A stretch of DNA of 64,000 nt, taken from NCBI RefSeq assembly GCF_900005765.1, contig NC_041687.1, positions 620,001 through 684,000 on the forward strand. Direction: 5' to 3'. Below are positions 22,321 through 60,774 of this stretch, one piece after another. The notes under the pieces were generated by a model that saw only the letters and a program-made list of their open reading frames with translations, ran no database searches and was not told the origin of the DNA. This DNA comes from Plasmodium relictum. Its lineage: Eukaryota > Apicomplexa > Aconoidasida > Haemosporida > Plasmodiidae. The first letter of the stretch is position 1; each line of letters begins with the position of its first letter. A program made the position numbers and the translations under genes.

Positions 22321-23919
22321 TTATTTATTATTAAATCGTTCTAACCATTTATCTGCTTCTTTTATTTCCTTTTTTTCCTGTTCATCGAACTCATATATCA
22401 AGAAATTAACCGTTTCAACAATTCTCATCTTTAATGCTATAGATTCATCTTTTTTATCATAAATCAATATGTCACTTTTAATTATATTTAACAAATCACT
22501 TTTTAGTCTCTCTATATTTTTGTTATTTTCCCCGTAAGAATTATTTTTCATATTTTGTCTTAATTTCCTCCTTTCGTTTGCATATTCATGATATTTATTC
22601 ATCACATTTGTATACATTTTTTCTAATTCGGAAATTTCTTGGAACTTATAATTAAGAAGTCTGTAATTATACTTTTGAAAATAAGGGTGCTCTAAAATCT
22701 CTTTACATCCTCCTTTATATCCCAATCTTTCTTCTGGGTTGATATTAGTTAACTTTTCAATTAAATCAATTAATTCAGATGATATTATAGGTGGGTATTT
22801 TATTTCTTTTTTTTTTATTTTATTATAAATGAACCATTCCGTTGAACCATTAAACGGAACTGTACATGTTACCAGCTGATAAATAGTACATCCAAGACTC
22901 CATAAATCCCGTGCCTTACCACTACATTTGTTTATTAACGCTTCTGGAGGCATAAAGTTAGGAGTTCCAACATAATTTTCAAGTTTTTTTTTCTTCTTGT
23001 AGTTGTTATTACATTTATCTATATTTAAAGGATATTTACTAATTCTTAAAATATTTGAATGGTAAACATTCTCTTTCGAAATAAAATTGTTAAATTCACT
23101 ATTTTCAATGTTTTTAGGTTCTTTAATAACGCAGTTCTTTTTAATTCGATCCTTTAATTTTTTATCATTTTCTTCATTATTAAAATCTAAAACATTTTCA
23201 TTCAATTCTTCAATGTCTAAATTATTATTATTTGTAGTTCCAGATTCGTTTCCTGAGCTTTCTTTTATGTTCTTGTTATTTTTCTTTTTTAATCTGAATT
23301 TACTCAACTCTGGATCTTTTATTGTGGGTTCATTGAATGTTTCCACAGATATAATGTCTAAATCTTTAGAAGTACCAAAATCAATCAATTTTATTATTCC
23401 ATCCTTATTTATAACAAAGTTTTCGCATTTCAAGTCTCTATGAATTATATTTTTGCTATGTATGTAATCTAATGCATGGATCATTTGGAATATTAAGTTA
23501 AATGTTATATTTTCATTAACTCCAATACTACGATTTTTTAAAAATTCCCATAATTCATAATCAACATATTCATATAATAAATAAACATGTTGTCTATCTT
23601 TAAATGTATCAATTAATTTAATAATATTCACATGACCAGGAATATTTAATTTTGTCATAGCATGTTTTTCTATTAAAACATCATTAATTTTATTCATTCT
23701 TTTTACTTTTTCTTTTTCAAATATTTTTAGGGAGTATATTTTTGAAGGATTATTCTTCAATTTTACCATGAAGACTTCGCTGAAGTTACCACTTCCTATG
23801 TGCATATATACTTCAAAATCATCTTTACAGTATTTTGTAGGTATTTTATCTTTTTCACTTTTCATTATCTTTCCCTCAATGTCATAGAAATTTTTATTCA
23901 ATAAAAATCCTTTCTTCAT
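22321..23919 (-). CDS. PDK1: PDK1-like AGC protein kinase
   Basis: This 532-aa intronless protein is a Ser/Thr kinase with the glycine loop IGSGNFSEV (41-49), the VAIK-type Lys 65 (YSLKIF), HRDLKCEN (160-167), DFG (180-182) and PPEAL after GTPNF (318-328). The C-lobe reads KARDLWSLGCTIYQLV, then PF, then ERLG, with a Gly before the HPYF motif, as in PDK1 rather than Mps1/TTK. PDK1 phosphorylates the activation loop of other AGC kinases; in P. falciparum it activates PKA and is essential. Two oddities stand out. About 130 low-complexity residues (187-314) are inserted in the activation segment. The Ser equivalent to human Ser241 is Asn (ENYVGT). No PH domain follows the kinase; the tail is helical and charged. 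Synteny with the P. falciparum PDK1 locus supports the name. Confidence 0.82.
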   Translation of the reverse strand: MKKGFLLNKNFYDIEGKIMKSEKDKIPTKYCKDDFEVYMHIGSGNFSEVFMVKLKNNPSKIYSLKIFEKEKVKRMNKINDVLIEKHAMTKLNIPGHVNIIKLIDTFKDRQHVYLLYEYVDYELWEFLKNRSIGVNENITFNLIFQMIHALDYIHSKNIIHRDLKCENFVINKDGIIKLIDFGTSKDLDIISVETFNEPTIKDPELSKFRLKKKNNKNIKESSGNESGTTNNNNLDIEELNENVLDFNNEENDKKLKDRIKKNCVIKEPKNIENSEFNNFISKENVYHSNILRISKYPLNIDKCNNNYKKKKKLENYVGTPNFMPPEALINKCSGKARDLWSLGCTIYQLVTCTVPFNGSTEWFIYNKIKKKEIKYPPIISSELIDLIEKLTNINPEERLGYKGGCKEILEHPYFQKYNYRLLNYKFQEISELEKMYTNVMNKYHEYANERRKLRQNMKNNSYGENNKNIERLKSDLLNIIKSDILIYDKKDESIALKMRIVETVNFLIYEFDEQEKKEIKEADKWLERFNNK

Positions 23920-34677: not shown

Positions 34678-36666
34678 ATGGAGAATATTAAAAATATAGA
34701 AAATGTTTTACAAACTACACATGTTAAAGATTTTGAAAAAAATAAGGAAAAAAAAATAAATGAAGAAGAAATTCCTAATGAAGCACAAAACGAAGAACAA
34801 TTGAATATAAATATATCTAATAATAATATGCAGAATGAAGAAAAAAATTTGATACCTCATAATATTCCTATTAAAGAATATAAAGTAGAAATTGATACAA
34901 ATGAAGAAATGAATATTTTAAATAAGAATGAGTCAGTATCTAATAATGAAAAAGAAAATAATTTAAAAGAATCAACTGCTCAGATAACAATAAATAATAA
35001 AATTAATAAGAATGAAATAAATATAACATCAGTTAAAAATAAAGATGAAAAAAGTAATAATATAATAAGAAGTAATAAAAGGAAAATTGATGATGAAACC
35101 AAAGAATCAATTTCCAAAAAATTAAAAATTGAGAGTATTGAACATGATTGTGAATTAAGTTTACCAAATAAAATAAATAATAGTATTTTTAATAGTGAAA
35201 GTAATATAAGGTCATATATAAAGAAAATAAAAAATAATTTCCATATATATTGGAAAGAGTGTGAATGCCAATTAAAAGAACTAGAAAATTGTTTTGTAGA
35301 GAATGAAAAACTAATTAAGGAAATTGTTTGTGAAAATAACAATGCAATAAATAACAAATATATAGGTAATGAAATGGAAGAACATATGAAAAGAAAAATA
35401 GAAAAAAAAAGAAAAATATTAAATAATATTATGAACATAAGATTGAATTACAGAATCATTGAGATGTATTTATTTACTATGAGGCAATTCTCTTATTCAT
35501 TAAAAGAAATTAATGATTATGTTTCTCTTATTTTAGATGAAAATAAAATAACAAAAAGTAACTATGAAATGATAATTGGAAATTTATTGAAATTCAAAGC
35601 AAAAAATTATGAAGATATAAAAAATACTATAGAAAAAAAAATGCTATCTATGGATAAATTTTCTAAAAACAAAAATGAAAGTATATATTCAAGAGATGAT
35701 TTTTCTCATTTACAAACTTTAAAATGCTTACAACATGAAATATCCGAGCGTGTTGATGCGAAAACTGATTTACGATTATTAATGATAAAGAAGAGAGAAT
35801 ATTCTGAAAAATTTATGAAAGAGAACCAAAGAAAAATTATTTCATTTAATAAATTATCATCATTTAAACAAGGTATTAAATGTATTATTGATAAATACAG
35901 TACATTGAATTTAGAACTTTCAAAATATTTATCAACTTTTTATTATAAAATTTTTAATCATCAAATTGAGTTGAGTGTCAACAATATTTCAATTTTAAAT
36001 AATAAAAAACCATTTAATTTTTTTTTTGTTTTTAAAGAGCAAAGTAATACTAACGATGTTTTTAATTACATGAAATATGATACTATTACAAAAATTAGAA
36101 AAAATAATGGAAATTCCCCTAATTGTAAGGAAGTTCACAATGAATATATAGCTCTAAACTTTCATACAAAAGATAATTTTGATATTTCCATTTTACCTGA
36201 TTTAAAATATCTTAGTTATTTAAATGTAGAAATAGAAATATCTTATTTATACAGTAGTGATTGCTTAGTTGCAAAAACAAATTCTATTGAATTCATAGGG
36301 TTGCATAATGGACGTAAATTATTATCCGATATATATAGCAATCAAGATCATTTTCTTTTATTTTCAAAAGATATAAATGATTTTCAAAATTTTAAATATG
36401 GTTTTCCTTTTTTATGGCTGAATGCAATGGCAGAAAGATCGTATACATTGGATACAGAACATGAAATATGTCAAAAAGATGAATCAAATAAAAAAAGTGA
36501 AAATAACAATACTATAGAAAATTTTCAGAATGACAATTTTGATAAGAAAAAATTATCAGATATATATAATTGGCATTTAAATAGAACTTTAGATATATCT
36601 GTGCTTTTCTCAAAAATATTTACAAGAAGTAAAGAAAAAAGAAAAAATATATATATAAATAAATAA
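34678..36666 (+). CDS. THOC5-like protein (THO/TREX mRNA export complex), tentative
   Basis: This is a 662-aa single-exon protein. Residues 1-150 are Asn/Glu-rich and end in a basic cluster (NKRKIDDE, SKKLKIE) that could be a nuclear localisation signal. Residues ~185-440 are helical and coiled-coil-like. Landmarks occur in the order found in animal THOC5: LLKFKAKNYEDI near 302 (like CLEFKSKHEEI), LKCLQHEISER and a basic coil, then LSKYL. A beta-rich C-terminal half follows, with KPFNFFFVF, HNEYIALNFHTKD, FPFLWLNAM near 573 (like HPYLWVQKL), and a terminal helix containing LNRTLDISVLFSKI. Human THOC5 is close in length (683 aa). THOC5 scaffolds THO, which couples transcription with mRNA export. 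Each match is weak; the shared order and length persuade me. It was not confirmed by any search. Confidence 0.5.
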   Translation: MENIKNIENVLQTTHVKDFEKNKEKKINEEEIPNEAQNEEQLNINISNNNMQNEEKNLIPHNIPIKEYKVEIDTNEEMNILNKNESVSNNEKENNLKESTAQITINNKINKNEINITSVKNKDEKSNNIIRSNKRKIDDETKESISKKLKIESIEHDCELSLPNKINNSIFNSESNIRSYIKKIKNNFHIYWKECECQLKELENCFVENEKLIKEIVCENNNAINNKYIGNEMEEHMKRKIEKKRKILNNIMNIRLNYRIIEMYLFTMRQFSYSLKEINDYVSLILDENKITKSNYEMIIGNLLKFKAKNYEDIKNTIEKKMLSMDKFSKNKNESIYSRDDFSHLQTLKCLQHEISERVDAKTDLRLLMIKKREYSEKFMKENQRKIISFNKLSSFKQGIKCIIDKYSTLNLELSKYLSTFYYKIFNHQIELSVNNISILNNKKPFNFFFVFKEQSNTNDVFNYMKYDTITKIRKNNGNSPNCKEVHNEYIALNFHTKDNFDISILPDLKYLSYLNVEIEISYLYSSDCLVAKTNSIEFIGLHNGRKLLSDIYSNQDHFLLFSKDINDFQNFKYGFPFLWLNAMAERSYTLDTEHEICQKDESNKKSENNNTIENFQNDNFDKKKLSDIYNWHLNRTLDISVLFSKIFTRSKEKRKNIYINK

Positions 36667-38403: not shown

Positions 38404-41400
38404 ATGCAAAATTTTGTCGACTTGGATCACATAAGAACTAGTAATGTAACTTCGGAAAATCACCATAAAATATTGAAAAATGTTGAAGAAGTTAGTGAAA
38501 ATAATAATAATAATAATAAAAATGATCAAAATTGTTTAATAAGTGAAAATATGCATAATAATATATCTTATGTATGTAATAATAATATTGATGACAAACA
38601 TACACTAAAGCATTTAAAAACAAAGGATATTACTGATCAGAATTTTCTTATTCATTCAGATAATTACTTAAGAAATAATGAACATTCTAAGGAAATTTTT
38701 AAAAATGATGAATCAAACACAAAAAATTTAGAAGAAGCTGTTAATAGAAGAAGAAAAATTAGAGAAATGATATCAGCATATAATTCGTTAAATTTATCTA
38801 GTTGTAATTTAGATAACATAGATATTCAAAAAAAAATATCATTACATCATTTTGATTACAATAATGATGAAGATGATAAATGCGAAAGTTTTGTTAAAAA
38901 AAATATACCAGAAGAAAACTATACGGATAAGTTTCATAAAAACCAAAATAAGAAGGAAAATAATTATAATTATGATTCAAGTATCACATATAAAAATAAT
39001 GATATATCATCATGTAATAATTATTCCTATTACTGTAATAACGATAATATAAAATCTAGGATAAATGAAAATATACTAGATAAGTCATTTATTAATGATG
39101 ATGATGAAATGGATGATTATAAGACATTTTTAACACTTGATAGTAATCAAACCATCTTTAAGAAAAAACCTCTTAAGCTTCCGGATATTTCATTTCTTAA
39201 TAATAGCAGTAGGAATTATAATACTATGCATAATGATGATAATGATAATGATATTCTAAGGAAAAAAATAATTTATGAAAAATTAGATTTATCATCATTC
39301 TGTTATGATGATAATAAAAACATAAATTTTCTTTCTCAATGCAATGGTGAAAATTCTACATTACAAAAGAGAACAGGTATAAATGAATTTAATAAAGTTT
39401 GTGTAGATAACAATATTAGTTTTTATGAATTAAAAAAGGAAAGTAAAAACAACATAGTTAAGAATTACATAAAAATCAATAAAGTAGAAAATTCAAATAT
39501 AGAACAGCTAATTAATAATAATTTAAGTCATTCTAATAATTATGTAGATAAAAAAATTAAAAGTTATGAACAAAAACATTTGAAAGAAAATAGTTATGCA
39601 AATAGATTATCATCCAAGAATGATTTAGATAATGCCTATTTTAAATATTACAATTTACATAGTAGTAGAAAACCAAACGATAAGAATAATAATTTACATA
39701 GTAGTACAGTAAAAACCAAGAAGGAACAAAATATAAATTTCATAAATAAAATTAGTAATGCAAGTATTGTTTATTCATCTGAACTTAAATATAGTAATTT
39801 ACCTGAAAATATAAGTAAAAAAAATTACAAAAATTACAATAATAGTAAGTATGAAAATATAGATAATGAACATCTAAATGATAAAGTAAAATTTTCTCTT
39901 GAAGAAAAAACGTATTTGAATTCTTCATATATTAAAAATATAGAAAAATTTAAAGAATTATTAATTAATGCAACAAAGGATAATTTAAATGAGTATGTAA
40001 AATGCTTACAAAATATTAATAATAAGAAGTTAAGAAATTATAAGCATTATGTTAAACAAGTAAATAATTATAGCATAAGTCAATATTTAAATACTACTTT
40101 TAGGGCATCTGTTCCTCAAAAAAATATTAGAGAATTAATGTTAAATAACTCAGATACATTTTCTTCTATACAAAAATGCTTAAATGAAAGTGATGATTTA
40201 AGCACAACAACACATAGTGACAATAGTAGCATTAGTAATTTTACATATAAAAGTTTAATAAATAGTAATAATAACAATAATAATCTTAGTTTGAAAATTT
40301 ATAAAAGAAAAAAAAAATATCATTTAAGGAACACTAGTACATTATCAACCACTTCTACTAATGAAATTAATTCTTGTTCTGAAAAAATAAAAAATGAAAT
40401 AAGCTTTAGTTTAGCTAATAAAAATAGACAAAAAAAGTATGATAAAAGTAGTTATAGTTTTAGTAATGTTAATCCAAAATTAGAAAATGTTATTAATAAA
40501 AATAATTTTCCTAATATTAAAGAAAATGATTTTTATAATTTAAAAAGATTAGATAATTTAAATGTAAAAAACGTAAAAAAAGAGCAGAATTTAGATATAA
40601 ATGATAGTTTAAAAAGTAATTATATTAAGCGAATTTTAAAAAAAAAAAATTTGTATGAACCTTTAGAAAATTATATTGTTGAAAAAAAAATTTGTAATTC
40701 TGATTATGCAAACAATTATAAAAATTATGATAAAGATAATTTTAAAGAAAATGAGTATATATGTTCTTTAAAAAAAAAAAAAAAAAAAAAAAGAAATATA
40801 AACAACAATATTAATTATATACATAGTTCCAAAAATAAAAATAAAAATAAAAATTATTTTCCTTTTAATACAGATTCTGAAGATTATAATAAGAAGTTAA
40901 ATAGTTCATCTGTTTCTTTGTTACGAAGTAATTCATGTGAAAATAATTACAAAAAATTATTATCTAATGACGAATTAAATAAATCAAATAATCAAACAAA
41001 TAATACTACAAATAATAAAAATATCTTATATATTAAAGATGGTGATAATAATATCAAATATGAAGACAACAACTACCATGAGGTAGACAAATTCCCAAGA
41101 CAATCATTATTTAATTGTACAAATAATTTTCTAAGCAAAAATGTATTATCTAATATAAACCAAGATAATGTAAATGAGGAAAATATGTATGAATTAGGAC
41201 AAATTAGAAAAAATGAAGATACTAATGGAAATAATAGTTGTGAAAGCAATAGAAGTAATATGAACAATGAAGATTTTAGTTATATAAATTTTTTAAAGAA
41301 TAGGAATTTTATTAATATTCATGATAATGCTTCAAAAAATGGAAAAATGGAAAATAATAATGTAATATATCTACAAAATGATACATGTGAAAGTAATATT

Positions 41401-43836
41401 AATAATGATCTTTTGAATAAAAAAAAAAGTTTATGTTTAAGTAAAAAAAATTCAGAAGATTTTCCGATGTATGATAAAAAATTAATAAAAATTGATTCTT
41501 TAACTAAAGAACGTAATAAAATTTCTTACAAAGATTCTAGCTTAATTAGAAATAACAATTTATTTTATTTTAATAATGTAGATGATAAAAATGAAATAAA
41601 TAGTATAGAAAAAAAAAATGAAAATATTTTATTGAATAATATAAAAAGAGAAAATTTCGATAATTCTATATTTATAAATAAAAAAGAGAAAGATAGTGTA
41701 AGCATTGATGTTTTAAATTTTAATTTTCAAAGTAGTCCAAATAATAATGTAAATTTGAATAAAAATAATTTTGAAATTCCAAATAATATTCAAGAATACA
41801 ACTGCCAATATCCTGAACACGCAAATAAAAGTGAAGGAAGAGATATTGGAGAAATTATTAGAAATAATAAAACGAGAATAGAAAATTTATATGATAATGA
41901 ACCAAGTCAAAGCGATTACTATTTAAGTGAAAATACAAGTGAATGCAAATATAATATAAACGAAAATATAGAAGATAACAAAAACTCTCGCCCTTTTTTA
42001 AATAAATATGATTATTTTTATAAATCCTTAAAAGAAAACTCTTATTCCTTTAATTCATATAAGGAAGATATTGAAAATAAAAGTGTTATCGGATGTTCAC
42101 TTGATAGTTTTAATGAGGAATTTGATAATCCAATTTCGGCACCTACACCAGCTGCATCCAGTTTTTCTAATATAAGTTTAAACTCATCTTATAATAAAAA
42201 TTTTAACAAATTGAACGTATTTAACTTGAAAAATAACCAAAATAATAATGTATGTGAAATACATAATCATTTGAATGATCAAAAATATTATATGAACATT
42301 GATGAATTAAAAAAAGGTAACTTTTATAATAATAATAATAGTAAAAGTAATTATGATAAAAGTAGTACTGGTAATAAAAATTTCAATAATAGTAAGGAAA
42401 AAAACATAAATTTAAATTTAGTAAGCGATAAAAATAAGCATAATATTTATGAAAATCATAGGCATACAATAAATACTAATAAAGGAGAAAATTCTTATTC
42501 TGTTAATCATTTTCTTAATAAAAAATATGAAATGTCAAATGCTTCTACTAATTTTTTAAAAAATAACATAAATAATACAGAAAATAATTTTGATTTTATA
42601 AATAATAAAAAATATAATGACAATTCACAAATATTGATAGATAAAAAATATACTAATTTCACTAACGTTTTTAAAGACAATATAAACAAAAAAAATATTT
42701 CTGATACATTTAGTGAAAGTACTGTAAATAATAGAAAAAGTTTAAATAGTATTATAACCAATAATATAAACAATTTGGATAAAAATTTGATTCATAACAA
42801 TGAAAATATTATTATTCAAAAACCGTTATATAAAGAGATATACAACAATTATACTTTTAGTAAAAAAAATAATTCACCTGAAACGTTAACAAATAATTTA
42901 ATAAATTTAACAGAACCCAATTGGAATTACAAGAAAACAAATAAAAATAGTGTCAATAAAATAGTAAATACTTTAGAAATAAAAGACATAAAGATAAACA
43001 CAAAACAAGGAATATTTGAAATAACATCTGTTGGAGAAGTAATTTTTACATTTTTAGGAAGATCAGAAATCAAAAGATATAAAAATGTAAAAAAAAAAAA
43101 CATGAATATAGACATATCAAAACCAAGAAAGTTATTATTTATAATTGAAATAGATGGAATAAATATCAAAATAAAAGATGTGTTAATGAATGAAGTTCTA
43201 GACTACTATAATATATTTGAGGAAGAATTACCAAAAACACACAATGCAAGGTATGAATATGCATACAATGTAGTTGAAACGTTAAAAAAGCATACACCTA
43301 AAGTATCTTTAACAAAAAAATGGTTTGGTACATATCATTTAATGAGCAATGGAAGCACTCCTGATTTTATTGCAATATTGAATAACAATATGTTTATTGA
43401 AAAAGTTGAAATTAAAAATAATCATGTAACATTTATTTTAAAAGATAGAACTAGTATAACCATACATAATGATGATTTGAATGAAATAACCACAAACTTT
43501 ACTAAAAAAACAATAGAGGAAAAAGAAAAAAGTGTAAATGATAGTAAAGGAAGTTATAATTTTTTAAAGGAAATGAAAGGAGATAATGAAGATATAAAAA
43601 TTATTTTGATGAATTTACAAAAATTGTTAAAAAAGACAGGGGTGTCAATTGATATAATTATTCAAAATTGGTGTAATACTTTACATGCCTATTCACATTG
43701 TCTTAGTTTATTAACAAAAGGAAATGCAGAATATACATTGAAACTAAAAAAAGCATTAGCAGATATGACAGAAAAAACAGAAATCCATAGAAGGAACATC
43801 TATTTTTCTATTTTCCCAATAATAATAGAAGAATAA
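38404..43836 (+). CDS. Kinase-less protein with a C-terminal PLK4-type cryptic polo box
   Basis: This is a 1810-aa intronless protein. Residues 1-1515 are Asn/Lys/Ser-rich low-complexity sequence with no kinase motifs (no glycine loop, HRD or DFG). The last ~290 residues (from about 1523, LEIKDIKINTKQGIFEI) are folded. They resemble the cryptic polo box of PLK4/SAK, in order: a PB1-like beta sheet with GIFEITSVGEVIF; the inter-strand segment LPKTHNARYEYAYNVVETL and KHTPKVSL, which aligns with LPEKYWRKYQYA...KTPKI of PLK4; the PB2 strand GTYHLMSNGSTPDFIAILNNN (compare ILMENSPGADFEVWFYDG); a helix with HAYSHCLSLL; and a terminal FPIIIEE matching FFPIIIG at the end of the PLK4 domain. That domain dimerises and docks PLK4 to centriolar Asl/SPD-2-type receptors. 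Neither a kinase nor a third polo box is present. Basal-body role inferred. Confidence 0.72.
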   Translation: MQNFVDLDHIRTSNVTSENHHKILKNVEEVSENNNNNNKNDQNCLISENMHNNISYVCNNNIDDKHTLKHLKTKDITDQNFLIHSDNYLRNNEHSKEIFKNDESNTKNLEEAVNRRRKIREMISAYNSLNLSSCNLDNIDIQKKISLHHFDYNNDEDDKCESFVKKNIPEENYTDKFHKNQNKKENNYNYDSSITYKNNDISSCNNYSYYCNNDNIKSRINENILDKSFINDDDEMDDYKTFLTLDSNQTIFKKKPLKLPDISFLNNSSRNYNTMHNDDNDNDILRKKIIYEKLDLSSFCYDDNKNINFLSQCNGENSTLQKRTGINEFNKVCVDNNISFYELKKESKNNIVKNYIKINKVENSNIEQLINNNLSHSNNYVDKKIKSYEQKHLKENSYANRLSSKNDLDNAYFKYYNLHSSRKPNDKNNNLHSSTVKTKKEQNINFINKISNASIVYSSELKYSNLPENISKKNYKNYNNSKYENIDNEHLNDKVKFSLEEKTYLNSSYIKNIEKFKELLINATKDNLNEYVKCLQNINNKKLRNYKHYVKQVNNYSISQYLNTTFRASVPQKNIRELMLNNSDTFSSIQKCLNESDDLSTTTHSDNSSISNFTYKSLINSNNNNNNLSLKIYKRKKKYHLRNTSTLSTTSTNEINSCSEKIKNEISFSLANKNRQKKYDKSSYSFSNVNPKLENVINKNNFPNIKENDFYNLKRLDNLNVKNVKKEQNLDINDSLKSNYIKRILKKKNLYEPLENYIVEKKICNSDYANNYKNYDKDNFKENEYICSLKKKKKKKRNINNNINYIHSSKNKNKNKNYFPFNTDSEDYNKKLNSSSVSLLRSNSCENNYKKLLSNDELNKSNNQTNNTTNNKNILYIKDGDNNIKYEDNNYHEVDKFPRQSLFNCTNNFLSKNVLSNINQDNVNEENMYELGQIRKNEDTNGNNSCESNRSNMNNEDFSYINFLKNRNFINIHDNASKNGKMENNNVIYLQNDTCESNINNDLLNKKKSLCLSKKNSEDFPMYDKKLIKIDSLTKERNKISYKDSSLIRNNNLFYFNNVDDKNEINSIEKKNENILLNNIKRENFDNSIFINKKEKDSVSIDVLNFNFQSSPNNNVNLNKNNFEIPNNIQEYNCQYPEHANKSEGRDIGEIIRNNKTRIENLYDNEPSQSDYYLSENTSECKYNINENIEDNKNSRPFLNKYDYFYKSLKENSYSFNSYKEDIENKSVIGCSLDSFNEEFDNPISAPTPAASSFSNISLNSSYNKNFNKLNVFNLKNNQNNNVCEIHNHLNDQKYYMNIDELKKGNFYNNNNSKSNYDKSSTGNKNFNNSKEKNINLNLVSDKNKHNIYENHRHTINTNKGENSYSVNHFLNKKYEMSNASTNFLKNNINNTENNFDFINNKKYNDNSQILIDKKYTNFTNVFKDNINKKNISDTFSESTVNNRKSLNSIITNNINNLDKNLIHNNENIIIQKPLYKEIYNNYTFSKKNNSPETLTNNLINLTEPNWNYKKTNKNSVNKIVNTLEIKDIKINTKQGIFEITSVGEVIFTFLGRSEIKRYKNVKKKNMNIDISKPRKLLFIIEIDGINIKIKDVLMNEVLDYYNIFEEELPKTHNARYEYAYNVVETLKKHTPKVSLTKKWFGTYHLMSNGSTPDFIAILNNNMFIEKVEIKNNHVTFILKDRTSITIHNDDLNEITTNFTKKTIEEKEKSVNDSKGSYNFLKEMKGDNEDIKIILMNLQKLLKKTGVSIDIIIQNWCNTLHAYSHCLSLLTKGNAEYTLKLKKALADMTEKTEIHRRNIYFSIFPIIIEE

Positions 43837-44621: not shown

Positions 44622-47600
44622 ATGGAAAGTGCTAGAGTATATGGTCTTGAATTCAAACCAATAATTGAATTTAATAATTATGAAGGAGGTGTAAAGCTAA
44701 CAAAAAAGCTAAATATAAAAAATACGACTAAAAATATAATAAGGTTTAGATTTTTATTTCAAAGTAGCTCTTATTTTACTTTTCCACTTCAAGAATTAGA
44801 AAATATTAGCCCTGGTTTAAACAAAAGTTATTCTATAAGTTTTTTAAATCCGTTAAATGATTTTCAGACAATTTGTGAAGAATTAAATATAGTAATAGAT
44901 GACAGTGAAAAAGATAAAATAATATCTATAAAACTGAAAGCTACACCTTTAAAATGTGATATAGTTTTCCCATCTATATTAAACTTTAAAGACATGGTAA
45001 TCAATCAGAAAAACAAAGAAGAATTAGTTATAGCAAATCAAGGTTCATTAAATGCAATTATCAAATTATCACATAAAAATTTATCAAAGGAAAGAAAGAT
45101 AAAAATTAAGTTAGATTCATCTCAATTTTTTTTGAAAAAAAAAGAAAAAAAATTAGTTGAATTAACAATATATTCAGAAATTCCTCAAAAATACAAAGAG
45201 TTCATATCATGCTCCATCATTGAAATACCTAAGCATCTGGAAAAAAAAATTTATTTTAAGAAAGATGATAAAATGAATAAAACTATAAATCCATATGAAA
45301 ACGAAGAAAAAAGTATAAATGATATAATACAATTATTAAATGAAGAAAATATTAAAGTACGTTTGATCAAAAAAAAAATTGAAATAAATTGGATTTCAGT
45401 TTTACCACATGTTAATATTTTATTGGAAAAAGACAAAGAAATATTTGATAAAAATATCATAAATTTTGGTCAAATAACATTAGGACAAAAACTTACTAAA
45501 ACTATATATTTGCAAAATCTAACTAATGCACCAATTAAAATAACAGTAATGACTTTTTTTTGTTGTATACATATAATATAAATATATATGAGCTTTTTTT
45601 CTTATATTTTTTCCATTTGTAACTCTTTTAGTTTTGGAAATTTTCATTTTTTCTTCATATTTACCTATTTTGTTGTTTTTTTTATTTTCTTTTACTTTTT
45701 TTTTTTTTTTTTTTCTTATTAAAAGGCTAAAAAAAAAAAAGAAAGTAACGTTTTTACTTTTTTAAATGAAAAATTTATATTGAAAGAAAAGTCAAAAGAA
45801 GAAATCATTTTAAGCATTGATGGAAACAATCCTGTTGACAATTATACAGAAATAATTCAATTTACAGCATGTAGTGATTATTCCATTGAATTATATTTAG
45901 TATGTGAAATTAAAAATGCAAAATTATTCTTCTCAAAGACAATTTATATATTTGAAAACATGAAATTAAAAGATAACATTAATGAAAAAATAACCATAAG
46001 AAACGACGAAAATACAGATCTTGATGTTGAAGTTATAAACACTGGAAATTTTATAAATATAAAAAATAAAAAATTTACTATTAAGAAAAATAGTTTTTAT
46101 TCTTTAAATTTAATGTGTGAATGTATTTATCCTATAAATGTTTATAAAAGGCTATATTTTTTGATTCATTTAAATAAACAAATTTATTATGTAGATATTA
46201 TTTGTAACTTCTCTATAAATTATGAAATGTGCCCTATTTCTATGCATCACATATATAGATATAAACATTTAATGAACGATAAACAAGTATTATACAACTC
46301 CTATTACGAAAGAAATAATTATATTGATATATGGGATTTTCCAGTTGAATTTAATTCTTATAATGATACTTCATGTGAAACACTAGATGATATAATAGAT
46401 ATAAATGAGAAGTAAATTTAATTATTTTAAAAAAATTATTACGAATATCTTATGCCTTTAACTTTAAAATAATATACAAGAGCAATTTTCTTATTTAAAA
46501 TAGACTCATAAATTAAAATAAAAAACATATATATTTTTATACAAAAATATATTTTTTTTTTTTTTTTGTAAGAGATGTATTTATTGTCCCCAAAGAATTA
46601 GAAGTCTTGGAATTTGAAGAAAAATATTTAATGATCATAAACAAAACATCAATAGAATATACATGTGTATGGTCAAGTATGTTAGATAAAAAAAGAAAGG
46701 ATTATAGTATTTTTGAAGTAACACCTATAGAAGCACAACTTTTACCTTTCAGCTGTCAAAAATTTAAGTAACCCCCTAAATTTATTTGAACGCTTTTTTT
46801 TTTTTTTCTTTAATAGATATTTGAATTTTTTTTTTTTTAAGAGTTAAAAATATAAAAATGCTTAAGGGAAAATTTGTTCGAGAAGTTTATGAATGTATTG
46901 TATTCCCTTCTAATAACAAAGATTATAGAAAATGCAACAGTAGAACATTATTACCACCTTTATTTTTATATATTACTTTTTTTCAATTTAAGATAAAATA
47001 TTTATGTGAACCAGAGAAAATAAATAATAATTTACTATTCTTTCCGACAAAAATTTGCTTTTTAAATATGATTGAAGAAGAAAAGAATTATGTTATTGCT
47101 AAGTTTGAAAACAATACAGACTCTACTCAAATAATTGATTTTACACAATTTAAAAACGATATTGAGGGAATAAAGTAAAAATATAACAAAAAAAGAATTA
47201 TTTTTCTTTATTTCTTTAAAATTTTTTTATGTTTTGTTATTTATTATAGAATATATCCATTGATAGGTTATGTACCCAAAAAAAGTTTTTTAAATGTTGT
47301 TATTTTTTATTTTCCAAAAAAAAAAGAATTAGCTCTATCAGAGAAAAAAATTTATTATTTAGTAAATGGAATTGAAAAAAATTATATATCTGTTTTTGTT
47401 TCCCATGAGATAAATAATGTCATGTTAAACAAAGGAAACTTAAATATAGTAAAAATATATTTTTTTTATATGAATACTAACTAAAACATTTCATTTATAA
47501 TTTTTTTTTATTATTATTTTTTTATTTTTATAAAGAATTTACCTCATGTAAGCACTGAGACAAAAAGTATAAAAAAAGTGCCAATTGAAAATTTTACTGA

Positions 47601-55251: not shown

Positions 55252-56115
55252 ATGGTGTTGGAAATTTTGAAAAATAATTTTGAAAGAAAAGGGGAAAATT
55301 ATTACAATAAAAAAATTCATAATAATTCCAGTAAGTACAAAAAGAAAAAAAAAAAATTTTTTTTGTTAGAAGAAGACAGTGAAAAGGATAGTAGGAATGT
55401 AGAAAGTGGAATTAATGAAGAATCATATAACATATATGAATTATATGAAAATATGTCAAATAAAAACAAAAAAAATTTGGATTATTCTTTTCCGAAGCTT
55501 AACAAAAATGGATCTATAACTAAATGCAAAATTGGAGAGTTATATAAAAATTCAAAAGAAAATCTTCATTATGGTACAAACGAAAATGATATTTTCACTG
55601 ATGATATATACGAAAACGATAATTTTGATGATGATAATTTTGTTGAGGATGAAAATATAGAATATAAAACGTACAATTCTTATGCAAATCCAGAATCTAA
55701 ATTATTTAATAATTATTCAAGTATAAACATAAAAAAAATGATTGAGCGCGATAAGAGATGTAATAAACCCGAAAATATATTGTATAATAAATATAGTTAC
55801 AGTAGTAATTATGATAAAAAAAATATAAGTAAGTGTGATTCAAACATAATAAGAATTTTAAAGAATAAGAAGAAAAGTATTGAATATAAAAAAAAAAATG
55901 ATAATCATCAAAAAAAAAATATTTCGTACAACTATAATGGGAATGTTAGATATAATCAAGATAATTATAAAAATTATAATGATAATGATGAAGAAAATAG
56001 TAATTATGAATACGATGGTGATGGCGATGGAAATTATTATAATTATGAAAGTGAGGATAAAGATACTGATGATGAAGGTGCTGATAATGTTGATGTTGAT
56101 GCTGATGATGATGAC

Positions 56116-56200
<85 letters not shown>

Positions 56201-59200
56201 GTGATGGTGATGGTGATGATGATGATGATAATGGTAATGATGATGTTGATGATGATGATGGTAATGATGATGATGCTGATGAAGATGCTGATGATGAATA
56301 TGAAGACGAAGATGACAATGAAAATGGAGATAATGGAGAAGAAAAAAGAATAAATGAATTAAAATTTGTTAAAAAAATTAAAGAGAAAGATGAAAACGAT
56401 GAATATGAAGAAGATGCATTTGAGGAAGACGATAATAGCATTGAAGAAGAGGAATATTTAGGAGATGAGGAAGAAGAAGGATATAAAAAAGAAAAGGATA
56501 AAAATAGAGATAATTATGATATTGAAGAGGAAAAAGAAGAATATGATGATATAATAAGAAAGAAAGGAGACGAAGAAAAAGGAAAAAAGAAGAAAAAAGT
56601 AAATGAATTCTTAGAAGGTTATAATAATAAAAATAATAATGAAAATAAAAAAAAATACAATAATATAAAAAATATTAACGAAAATAGACATAAATTAATA
56701 AATGAATCTAAGGAAGAATATCAAAGTTCAAAAAAAAGAGATGGATATTTTGAAAAACAATTTATACCTGATAAAAGAGAAGAAAATGAATCAATAGTTC
56801 CATATGACATTTTAAATGACGAAATAAATAATAAAAATTATGAATTTAAAGTTATGAACTATAAAAAAGAGTGTCAAGAAGACAATTATAAGAAAAAAAA
56901 AATAAAAAAAAATCAAGAGTTATTAAAATTATATATTGATGAAAATAATAGCGAAATCGATTTAACCGAAAATATTTTATCAAACTCAAAAAACATTGGC
57001 ATAGAGAATAAAACAAAAAATGATGTTTTTAGCTCTGATAATTTTAAATTTAATTATAATAAAAAGATATATCAATCTATGAATAAAAGTGATAAAATGA
57101 TTAAGGATAATAACAGTGATAATACTATTAATAAAAAGTTAAATTGTAAACAAAAAGAAATAATAAATAATATTGACTATGAGGGAAATTCGTTATATAA
57201 AAATACACATGAGGATAGTGGTGATATATTAAATAGAAAAAACGATGATTTAAAAGAATTAAGATTTAACGGAGAAACAATCCAAGAAATATATTCTGAA
57301 GATAAAAAAAAAAATAATATAAAAAACTTCTTAGATAAAATGAAAAATAAAAAAAATAGTGATGATGTTTCTAAAAAGGAAGATAAAAAAAATGAACTTT
57401 TACAAAGAAAAGATAAAAAAGATAAGTTAAAAATGAAATTTACTGATATTTTATATGCTGGGGCATTAGGACAATTTTTTCACCGCAGCAAAAATAATTT
57501 TGCAAATTCATTATCACCTCAAATTAAAGGGGAAAATACTTTTGAACCATCTAATAATTTAAATAATTTAGATAAGTTTAATTTGGATGATTATAAAATA
57601 TCTAATATAAAGGATAAATATGAAGAAAATTTATCACATAAATCAAAGGATAAAGAAAAAATATATTATAATAAAAGAGGATTAGAAACAGAACTATATA
57701 ACAATTTCAATGAAAAAACTAATGATGATAAAAATATATGTTGTAATTCAATTAAAGAAAAGTTAGATATCATAAAAGATGATAAAAAATATAATGAATT
57801 AACTAATAAAAAAGAGAAAACCAATTTCCTGAGATTTTCAAATGCTTTAAATGATAAAAATAACCCAAAAAAGAGTGATAAATATGATAAAAATAAAAAT
57901 TTATATATAGATGATCCTTGTAGTTCAAAGCATAGTTATATTAATGACATAAACGAAAAAAAAAATGATGTTTTCAAAAATTCTAATAGCGTAAGAAATA
58001 TTATTATAAATAGGAATTATTACAAAAATAAATATGATAAAAATTTAGGTGCGAAAAATGAAAAAATGAATGAAATTGAAAATAAAAGAACTTTATATGC
58101 ACAATCATCCTATAAAAATGGTTCTGGAAGTGACAATAAGACGAAAAGTTTACAAAATATCAAAAAAAGGGAAGAAAAAAAGAAACAAAAATTTAGAAGT
58201 AAAGAAAAGAAAATAGAGGATAAAAAACAAAAGGAATTAGAAATAAAAATAGATGAAACGTTAAGTAGAAAGATGATTGAGAATAATGAATTAAAGAATC
58301 ATGATGAAATTGATGAAGAATATATAGTAACACCCTTTTATATAAAAAGTAAAATAGATAAGGTTTTAAAGAATAGTGAAATTTTTGAGAGATCTGCTAG
58401 AGCAACATTTCAACAATTTGATATTAAAAATAAAAATTTTCTACATTTTAGTGAGATTGAATCATTGATACAAAAATTATGTTATAATTTGGAGCTTCCT
58501 CCTGTTGATAGTTAGAAAACAAAAAATAATGTTTATATATATTTTATTAATCTTTGTGTTATAGTTGTTTTATTTTATATATAATTATATGTGTATACGT
58601 ATATATATATATTTACATATATTTTTTTTAATTTTTTTTTTTTTCTTAAGAAAATATATTATCTATAGTATACAAAGACTATGATAGTAGTAAGAACAAT
58701 AGTATGAATTATACAGATTTTCGCCAAATGTATTGGGATTTGTTAAAGCAAATAAAAAAAAAATATTATCCTACTAAGAATTTTAAAATAAAAAGAAATT
58801 GTATTATAAGTAGAAAGAAATTAGGTGGATATGATTATTCTTCTATTTATAACTATTTAAGCTTCAAAAAAATACTTGGATGTGGTGCTTTTGGTGAAGT
58901 ACATTTAGTTGAAGATAATATATGCAAACTATATAAAGTTGTTAAGATATTAAAAAAAAAGAGCATGAAAAATGTAAAAATAAATGAAGAAATTAATGTG
59001 TTAATATATTTAGATCATCCTAATATTATAAAAATTTTTGATGTGTATGAAAATGTTGATTGCACATATATTGTTATGGAGTTATGTGAAGGTGGTGAAT
59101 TAATGAATAAAATTAAGAACTCCGAAAAATTTAATGAAAAATACATAAAAAATATAATGTTTCAGATTTTATGTGCTATAGCATATATGCACAGTCATAA

Positions 59201-60774
59201 TATAGCTCATAAAGACTTAAAACCGGAAAATATTTTATTTAAAGCAAAGGATGATGACACTTTAAAAATTATTGATTTTGGTTTAGCAGAATTGATTAAT
59301 AAGTCTGAAGGAGTTAGTAAAACAGCTGCAGGAACTGTTTTATATATGGCACCAGAAGTATTTAAAAAAAATTTTACAATAAAATGCGATATATGGTCAG
59401 CAGGTGTAATTATGTTTTTTTTATTCACAAAAAACTTACCATTTTGTGGAAATACTTATGAAGAAGTAAAACAAAGTATATTTAAAGATGAACCAGATTA
59501 TAAAAGTTTAAAACCCCAATTATCTCAATCAGCTTTACATATATTAAAGCTTATGTTAGAAAAAGATTATAATAAAAGGCCTATGGCAGCAGTGGTAAAA
59601 ATAAATATATAATATTTTATATTTTAAAAATTTTATTATATATTAGATAGTCTTTTAATATACAAATAACTGCTTTTTAAATAAAGGAATAAGTTATTAA
59701 AAATTTATATAATTAAAAAATATATATATATATATAATAATTTAAATATGTAAGTTATATAAATAAAATTAATGTAAATTATTATTTTATTTTAATTTTT
59801 TTATCCCTTCTTAGCTTTTGCACCATCCGTGGTTTCAGGGTTATCTTGATCCAATTGAAATTTCTCCTAGCACGCTGAATAATATAAAGTCATATATGAA
59901 ACATTCAAATATAAGAAACATTATAATTAATATAATGGCACACGAATTAAGTATAATAAATAAGCATATCAAATATATCAATGAAATATTTTGTAAAATA
60001 GATACAAATCATAATGGATCACTTAGTCATAGAGAAATTTATACTGTTCTGTCAAGTGCAGGTATAAAAAAATGGGACATTAATAGAATTGTTCAAGCTT
60101 TAGATATTAATGATAGAGGGAATATAACTTACACAGGTATAATTATATATAATATATTTATATATGTTCTTTCAAAAGCTAATCATATTATTTAATAAGA
60201 ATACATATATATAATGTTAAAATTTTTTTTAATTTTTTAGAATTTATTGCTGGATGCTATAGATGGAAAAATATAGAACCAACGTTTTTAAAGGCAGCTT
60301 TTAATAAGATAGATAAGGTTGTAAATATATATATATGAATATAGATGTAAACATATCATTATGCAAACATAAAAATATGTAAAACTTTTTACTTTTCTAT
60401 TTCTAATTAAGAATATTACAGATTTAATTTATATTCTCGTAAAAAATATTTTAAAAAAATAAAATTTTTTTTTTGTCTTTTTTCATTCTACAGGATGAGG
60501 ATGGTTACATCAGTAAAAGTGACATTGTTACATTGGTTCGAGATAAGGATATAGACAGTAATGATATTGATAATTTTTTATCATCTGTGTATAGCATAAA
60601 AAAGGATATACCTAAGGACAAGAAAATAAATAAGGTATATTTTTAGCAAAAAAAAAAAAAAGAAAAGAAAAAATAATCATAATTTTAATTCATTTTATCT
60701 TTGTGAATAATGTTTTTTTCTCTCAATAGGTAAGTTTTGAAGATTTTAAGGAATATATGTTAAGTACATTTTAG
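55252..60774 (+). CDS. CDPK6: Calcium-dependent protein kinase CDPK6, 6 exons
   Basis: Exons are 55252-58510, 58651-59594, 59815-60136, 60241-60317, 60494-60634 and 60730-60774, totalling 4788 bases (1595 aa) with matching phases. Residues 1-1030 are low complexity with a poly-Asp tract near 285-317. Two EF-hand-like helices precede the kinase: ATFQQFDIKNKNFLHFSEIE (about 1053) and YKDYDSSKNNSMNYTDF (about 1093). The kinase (about 1156-1410) has GCGAFGEV, HKDLKPEN (Lys in place of the usual Arg of HRD, near 1272), DFGLAE and MAPEVF, and ends HHPWFQ. The regulatory tail has EF-hands DTNHNGSLSHRE, DINDRGNITYTE and DKDEDGYISKSD; the fourth is degenerate and lacks calcium ligands. N-terminal EF-hands with a very long extension are characteristic of CDPK6. 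In P. berghei CDPK6 acts in sporozoite activation for hepatocyte invasion. Position on the chromosome also agrees. Confidence 0.88.
56104..56203 (+). repeat. GAT trinucleotide microsatellite encoding poly-Asp in CDPK6
   Basis: This is about 33 nearly uninterrupted GAT codons (one GAC) within a longer Asp-rich tract reaching to about 56330 with Gly, Asn, Val and Ala interruptions. The tract would be strongly negative. It is likely to vary in length between isolates. Confidence 0.95.

Follow-up and report, generated by a model that had tools for sequence, protein, structure and literature searches.

The closest known system is the cryptic polo box (CPB) of the kinase PLK4, also called SAK (Pfam PF18190 and PF18409; PDB 4n7v, 4g7n and 4nk7). 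In PLK4 this domain attaches the kinase to the centriole by way of segments of Cep152 and Cep192, and both complexes are named in the titles of PDB entries matched in this work. A second comparison is the PLK1-type polo-box domain (Pfam PF00659), which is of the same fold class if the domain described here is a polo box. Polo boxes were also retained after loss or truncation of the kinase in other proteins of other lineages, namely PLK5 and kinetoplastid kinetochore proteins, which were compared by description and which we take not to be of PLK4 type. PLK5 is described as having polo boxes without an active kinase (PMC7653357) and the kinetochore proteins as having a divergent polo box (PMC6881465). 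PLK4 itself is described as the master regulator of centriole duplication, with a third polo box (PB3) that binds STIL (PMC4530586).

Polo-like kinases (PLKs) are considered lost in malaria parasites, which nevertheless assemble centriole-like bodies when they make male gametes. The absence of PLKs from Plasmodium or apicomplexans is stated in PMC8789139, PMC8705618, PMC7653357, PMC4743101 and PMC3025120. According to PMC8789139, P. berghei forms eight basal bodies de novo from a deuterosome-like structure in a SAS6- and SAS4-dependent manner, early defects of the microtubule-organising centre (MTOC) occur without SRPK1 or CDPK4, and either the lost kinase is unneeded or others fulfil its role. 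A later paper reported SAS4 to be dispensable for male gametes (PMC9098390), so that this pathway is debated. Cep152, Cep192 and SAS-5 are listed among absent proteins in PMC8705618; the partner of a Plasmodium CPB would therefore have to be another protein.

The window analysed here, a stretch of 64,000 nucleotides of the P. relictum genome, carries on its forward strand an intronless gene at 38404-43836, open across 5.4 kb and encoding 1810 residues. A long Asn-rich low-complexity body precedes a C-terminal CPB-like domain. Conserved blocks lie in this body at 38734-38793 (residues 111-130; 12 sequences compared) and at 39118-39195 (residues 239-264; YKTFLTLDSNQTIF...PDISF). The domain begins with a polo box 1 (PB1)-like part at 42958-43293 (residues 1519-1630), made up of strands and the helix LPKTHNARYEYAYNVVETLKK and recognised by Plk4_PB1, shuffle and profile tests. 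The linker TPKVSL and the polo box 2 (PB2)-like strands, including LMSNGSTPDFIAILNNN, occupy 43294-43482 (residues 1631-1693), where Plk4_PB2 matches fall. Alignments place after them a variable insert at 43483-43587, of species-dependent length and absent from the human and fly CPBs, and a C-terminal helical part at 43588-43833 with the closing motif FPIII (43813-43827). In position this last part corresponds to PLK4's PB2 helix and FPIII; taken alone it is not significant. The chain terminates 2 residues past FPIII, leaving no room for a PB3 after the CPB.

No kinase domain was detected by Pfam in the protein or in the 5 of its 11 other full-length relatives that were examined. The kinase motifs DFG and APE were absent from all 12 sequences, look-alikes of other kinase motifs occurred singly in 3 of the 12, and the frames upstream of the gene were too small for a kinase exon. 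The initial annotation had described a protein that lacks a kinase and stops at the domain end; no kinase exon turned up, and taken as a whole the observation is confirmed in part and its interpretation supported in part. Though it has a PLK4-type domain, the protein is not PLK4: the N-terminal Ser/Thr kinase domain and PB3 of the whole enzyme are missing, and there is a very long disordered body instead.

The domain has in common with the PLK4 CPB, in the same order, the PB1 strands, the helix LP..h..rYeYA, the linker TPKv, the strand LM..g..pDF and the FP closing motif, and the protein ends where the CPB ends. It differs in its sequence (~21% identity) and in the variable insert within PB2. 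Alignment scores against the human and fly CPBs were compared with those of shuffled sequences, and in 8 of 8 comparisons none of 1000 shuffles reached the real score. Across the 12 Plasmodium sequences, none of 300 shuffles did so with the fly CPB; with the human CPB the count was 0/300 in 11 sequences and 1/300 in one. With PLK1 as the negative family the real score was reached by 89-300 of 300 shuffles, so that PLK1-type likeness was not above shuffles in any of the 12. Profile comparison by hhalign matched the domain to the PLK4 CPB with a probability of 74.7 (P 2.6e-5) over ~127 columns running from PB1 into PB2; the score was 39.9, against at most 21.8 for 100 column shuffles and 15.0 for the reversed profile. 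The hhalign probability against PLK1 was 0.1.

Pfam searches with the PB1 piece gave Plk4_PB1 in 12/12 sequences (best E 7.2e-4), the match of the window's own piece spanning positions 4-105 of 107; with the whole domain Plk4_PB1 was found in 11/12 (best 0.0057) and Plk4_PB2 in 6/12 (best 0.027), all of these matches being below the curated cut-offs. When PB2 pieces were cut out, Plk4_PB2 matched 4 of 5, the P. berghei piece being the one without a match, and the PB2 strands alone and the C-terminal tail alone matched weakly. The full-length protein gave no Plk4 family, and POLO_box matched neither the full-length protein, the whole-domain set nor the cut PB2 pieces. For control, 12 ORFs of the window supplied 26 pieces, 5 of them taken from residues 1-1445 of the protein itself. 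These hit 34 families at E <= 10, and no Plk4_PB family was among the best 25 of these (down to a best E of 0.14). By our estimate rather than a computed probability, two adjacent PLK4 families matching in the correct order among 24736 families would be hard to get by chance. The PB1-like part is thus of PLK4 kind by the shuffle, profile and Pfam tests, though below the Pfam cut-off. Taking these results together, the C-terminal part is very probably a relative of the PLK4 CPB, and no relationship to the PLK1 polo-box domain could be detected. The proposal that the last ~290 residues line up with the CPB through both polo boxes is upheld for PB1 and is weaker for PB2 taken alone.

Relatives at E <= 1 numbered 12 Plasmodium proteins, the window's own included, with lengths of 1702-2009 aa. 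Most of the conservation fell in the last ~290 residues, short blocks being present in other parts, and the nearest relative found was that of P. gallinaceum, with a domain 87% identical. The whole-protein search, limited to the length range of the whole protein, yielded these 12 and none beyond Plasmodium; a search with the domain alignment (8000 best candidates scored) and one with a 711-aa piece likewise gave no non-Plasmodium relative at E <= 10. All of these searches require common 5-residue words and fitting lengths, and distant relatives could escape them, so that the ortholog survey proposed at the outset is informative for Plasmodium. With the domain as query, the P. relictum genome (22.6 Mb, 514 contigs) returned only the domain itself at E <= 10, giving a copy number of 1.

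On these grounds the domain is read as a conserved, PLK4-specific relative of the CPB, carried on a kinase-less Plasmodium protein, its twin fold and function being inferred. That it serves as a kinase-less scaffold, docking through the CPB at whatever site, is the reading we favour and consider fairly probable. Two polo boxes would be joined in the folded domain, which may form dimers and would bind a short partner segment in the way the PLK4 CPB binds Cep152 and Cep192. Docking would bring the long disordered body and its few conserved blocks to one cellular site, and whatever binds the blocks at residues 111-130 and 239-264 would be carried along. The likeliest site would be a basal body or MTOC, where kinase activity would be supplied by another enzyme. 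By analogy with PLK4, a scaffold role at this particular site is proposed tentatively, at slightly under an even chance; the protein would fit the PLK gap in the basal-body pathway and may be localised there. A stricter version, in which the centriole-docking part of PLK4 was kept as a free-standing CPB that seeds or licenses the de novo basal bodies of male gametocytes while another kinase phosphorylates, is doubtful. A centriole-adaptor role in general is weakened because the protein stops at the end of the CPB, the STIL-binding PB3 being missing, and because a UniRef label, KIC10, ties one relative to the Kelch13 neighbourhood.

That label underlies the better surviving of two competing explanations, in which a PLK4-type CPB has been re-used off the centriole: the protein would be KIC10, from the Kelch13 neighbourhood, with its polo box serving in blood stages as docking adaptor for the K13 endocytic compartment or its surroundings. 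UniRef names the P. yoelii relative Protein KIC10, and KIC1-KIC10 are described as identified through proximity labelling with a K13-biotin ligase (PMC8100002). A correct label would place the protein in blood stages near K13 and would favour another use or a double role. The likeness to KIC10 consists in this name, however, which stands on 1 of the 12 sequences with its source not given; another relative is named FHA domain-containing by UniRef, so that such names can be automatic. Neither KIC10 nor polo appears in the main text of a paper on domains of K13-compartment proteins (PMC10718435), and the literature searched held no domain assignment for KIC10. We consider this explanation unlikely. 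An equation of KIC10 with PF3D7_1123500 was rejected, that gene being called Golgi protein 2 in one paper.

The scaffold reading presupposes a polo-box fold, which was examined by structure prediction and by open searches. The models were of low confidence (pLDDT 39.7 for the 289-residue domain, 41.2 for PB1 alone), probably from shallow alignment depth. In Foldseek with the full-domain model the first ten places went to PLK4 CPBs (E 1.3e-4 to 7.7e-3); the remaining 40 of the best 50 of 669 matches (E <= 10) were polo-box domains of Cdc5 or PLK1, those of PLK1 type at ranks 12-50, so that all of the best 50 were polo-box domains. Because TM-scores were ~0.2, rmsd was 13-16 in most rows and Foldseek also scores residue letters, and is thus not independent of the sequence evidence, we take this as support and not as proof of the fold. 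With the PB1-only model, none of 547 matches reached E <= 0.001; PH domains of Rtt106 came first and a PLK4 chain third. The predicted twin polo-box fold is accordingly favoured by the full-domain ranking and left unconfirmed by the models.

Open PDB searches gave PLK4 chains at E 0.3 with the window sequence, one unrelated chain being higher. With the profile, PLK4 lay at E 0.26-0.77, below ribosomal S21 (E 0.088) and interspersed with MAGE-G1 and NSE3; with the P. berghei sequence PLK4 was at E 0.06, below MAGE-G1 and NSE3 at 0.04. In Pfam, MAAL_C matched the whole domain in 11/12 (best E 0.00038) over part of that family's profile only, and is regarded as a helical chance match. MAGE/NSE3 matched ~70 residues and MAAL_C 32-88, as compared with ~127 columns for PLK4. 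The matches to MAAL_C, DUF4545, DUF4988, Rad9, MAGE-G1/NSE3 and ribosomal S21 were discounted, without individual shuffle tests, for being short or partial. No other family gave a better match across the entire domain, but short unrelated matches equalled PLK4 in open searches. A Plasmodium-specific strand-and-helix domain that is not a polo box, its PLK4 likeness due to chance or convergence and chosen through the initial annotation's idea, would account for these equal scores, for the lead of PH domains with PB1 alone and for the low-confidence models, but is improbable given the shuffled and reversed scores far below the real one, the negative behaviour of PLK1, the longer PLK4 alignment and the control pieces.

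No paper on a cryptic polo box and no earlier report of a CPB-like domain in Plasmodium was found in the literature searched, most subscription papers being outside its scope, and no polo box lacking a kinase turned up in a targeted search of the papers. An AlphaFold survey of P. falciparum proteins of unknown function mentions neither polo nor PLK in its main text, and its supplements may list the domain (PMC11079077). If the relationship to PLK4 is true, the docking part would either have outlived the PLK4 enzyme or have been acquired separately, and the PLK4 CPB would gain an alveolate branch in its history. It would also provide one gene with which to study the de novo onset of eight basal bodies in malaria parasites.

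Genome scans with Plk4_PB1 returned nothing, the window's own domain being missed as well and control genomes being silent, so that these scans carry no weight either way. One POLO_box genome match was rejected, as it comprised 21 aa of open frame and two stops. A scan with STIL_N returned nothing, though no control responded either, and the Tcp10_C (SAS-4) profile gave two sub-threshold matches. SAS-6 was present above cut-off: SAS-6_N matched at two places (contigs C11 and C14), one a 703-aa frame and one a short frame, which are perhaps SAS-6 and a SAS-6-like protein.

Elsewhere in the window, two protein kinase genes were seen at 22321-23919 (reverse strand) and 58704-59612 (forward strand), with Pkinase E values of 6.3e-56 and 5.2e-62. 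The 1087-aa ORF at 55252-58515 (forward strand) had no Pfam match at E <= 0.01. A control piece that weakly matched FmiP_Thoc5 (E 0.05) probably derives from the upstream ORF at 34678-36666 (forward strand), which as a whole gave no Pfam match at E <= 10; if the match belongs there, this ORF would encode a divergent form of subunit 5 of the THO complex. The next gene downstream, at 44622-46415 (forward strand), matched HYDIN/CFA65-like and CFAP65 Ig-like domains and seems to encode a flagellar (axonemal) protein, spread over two or more exons or frames.
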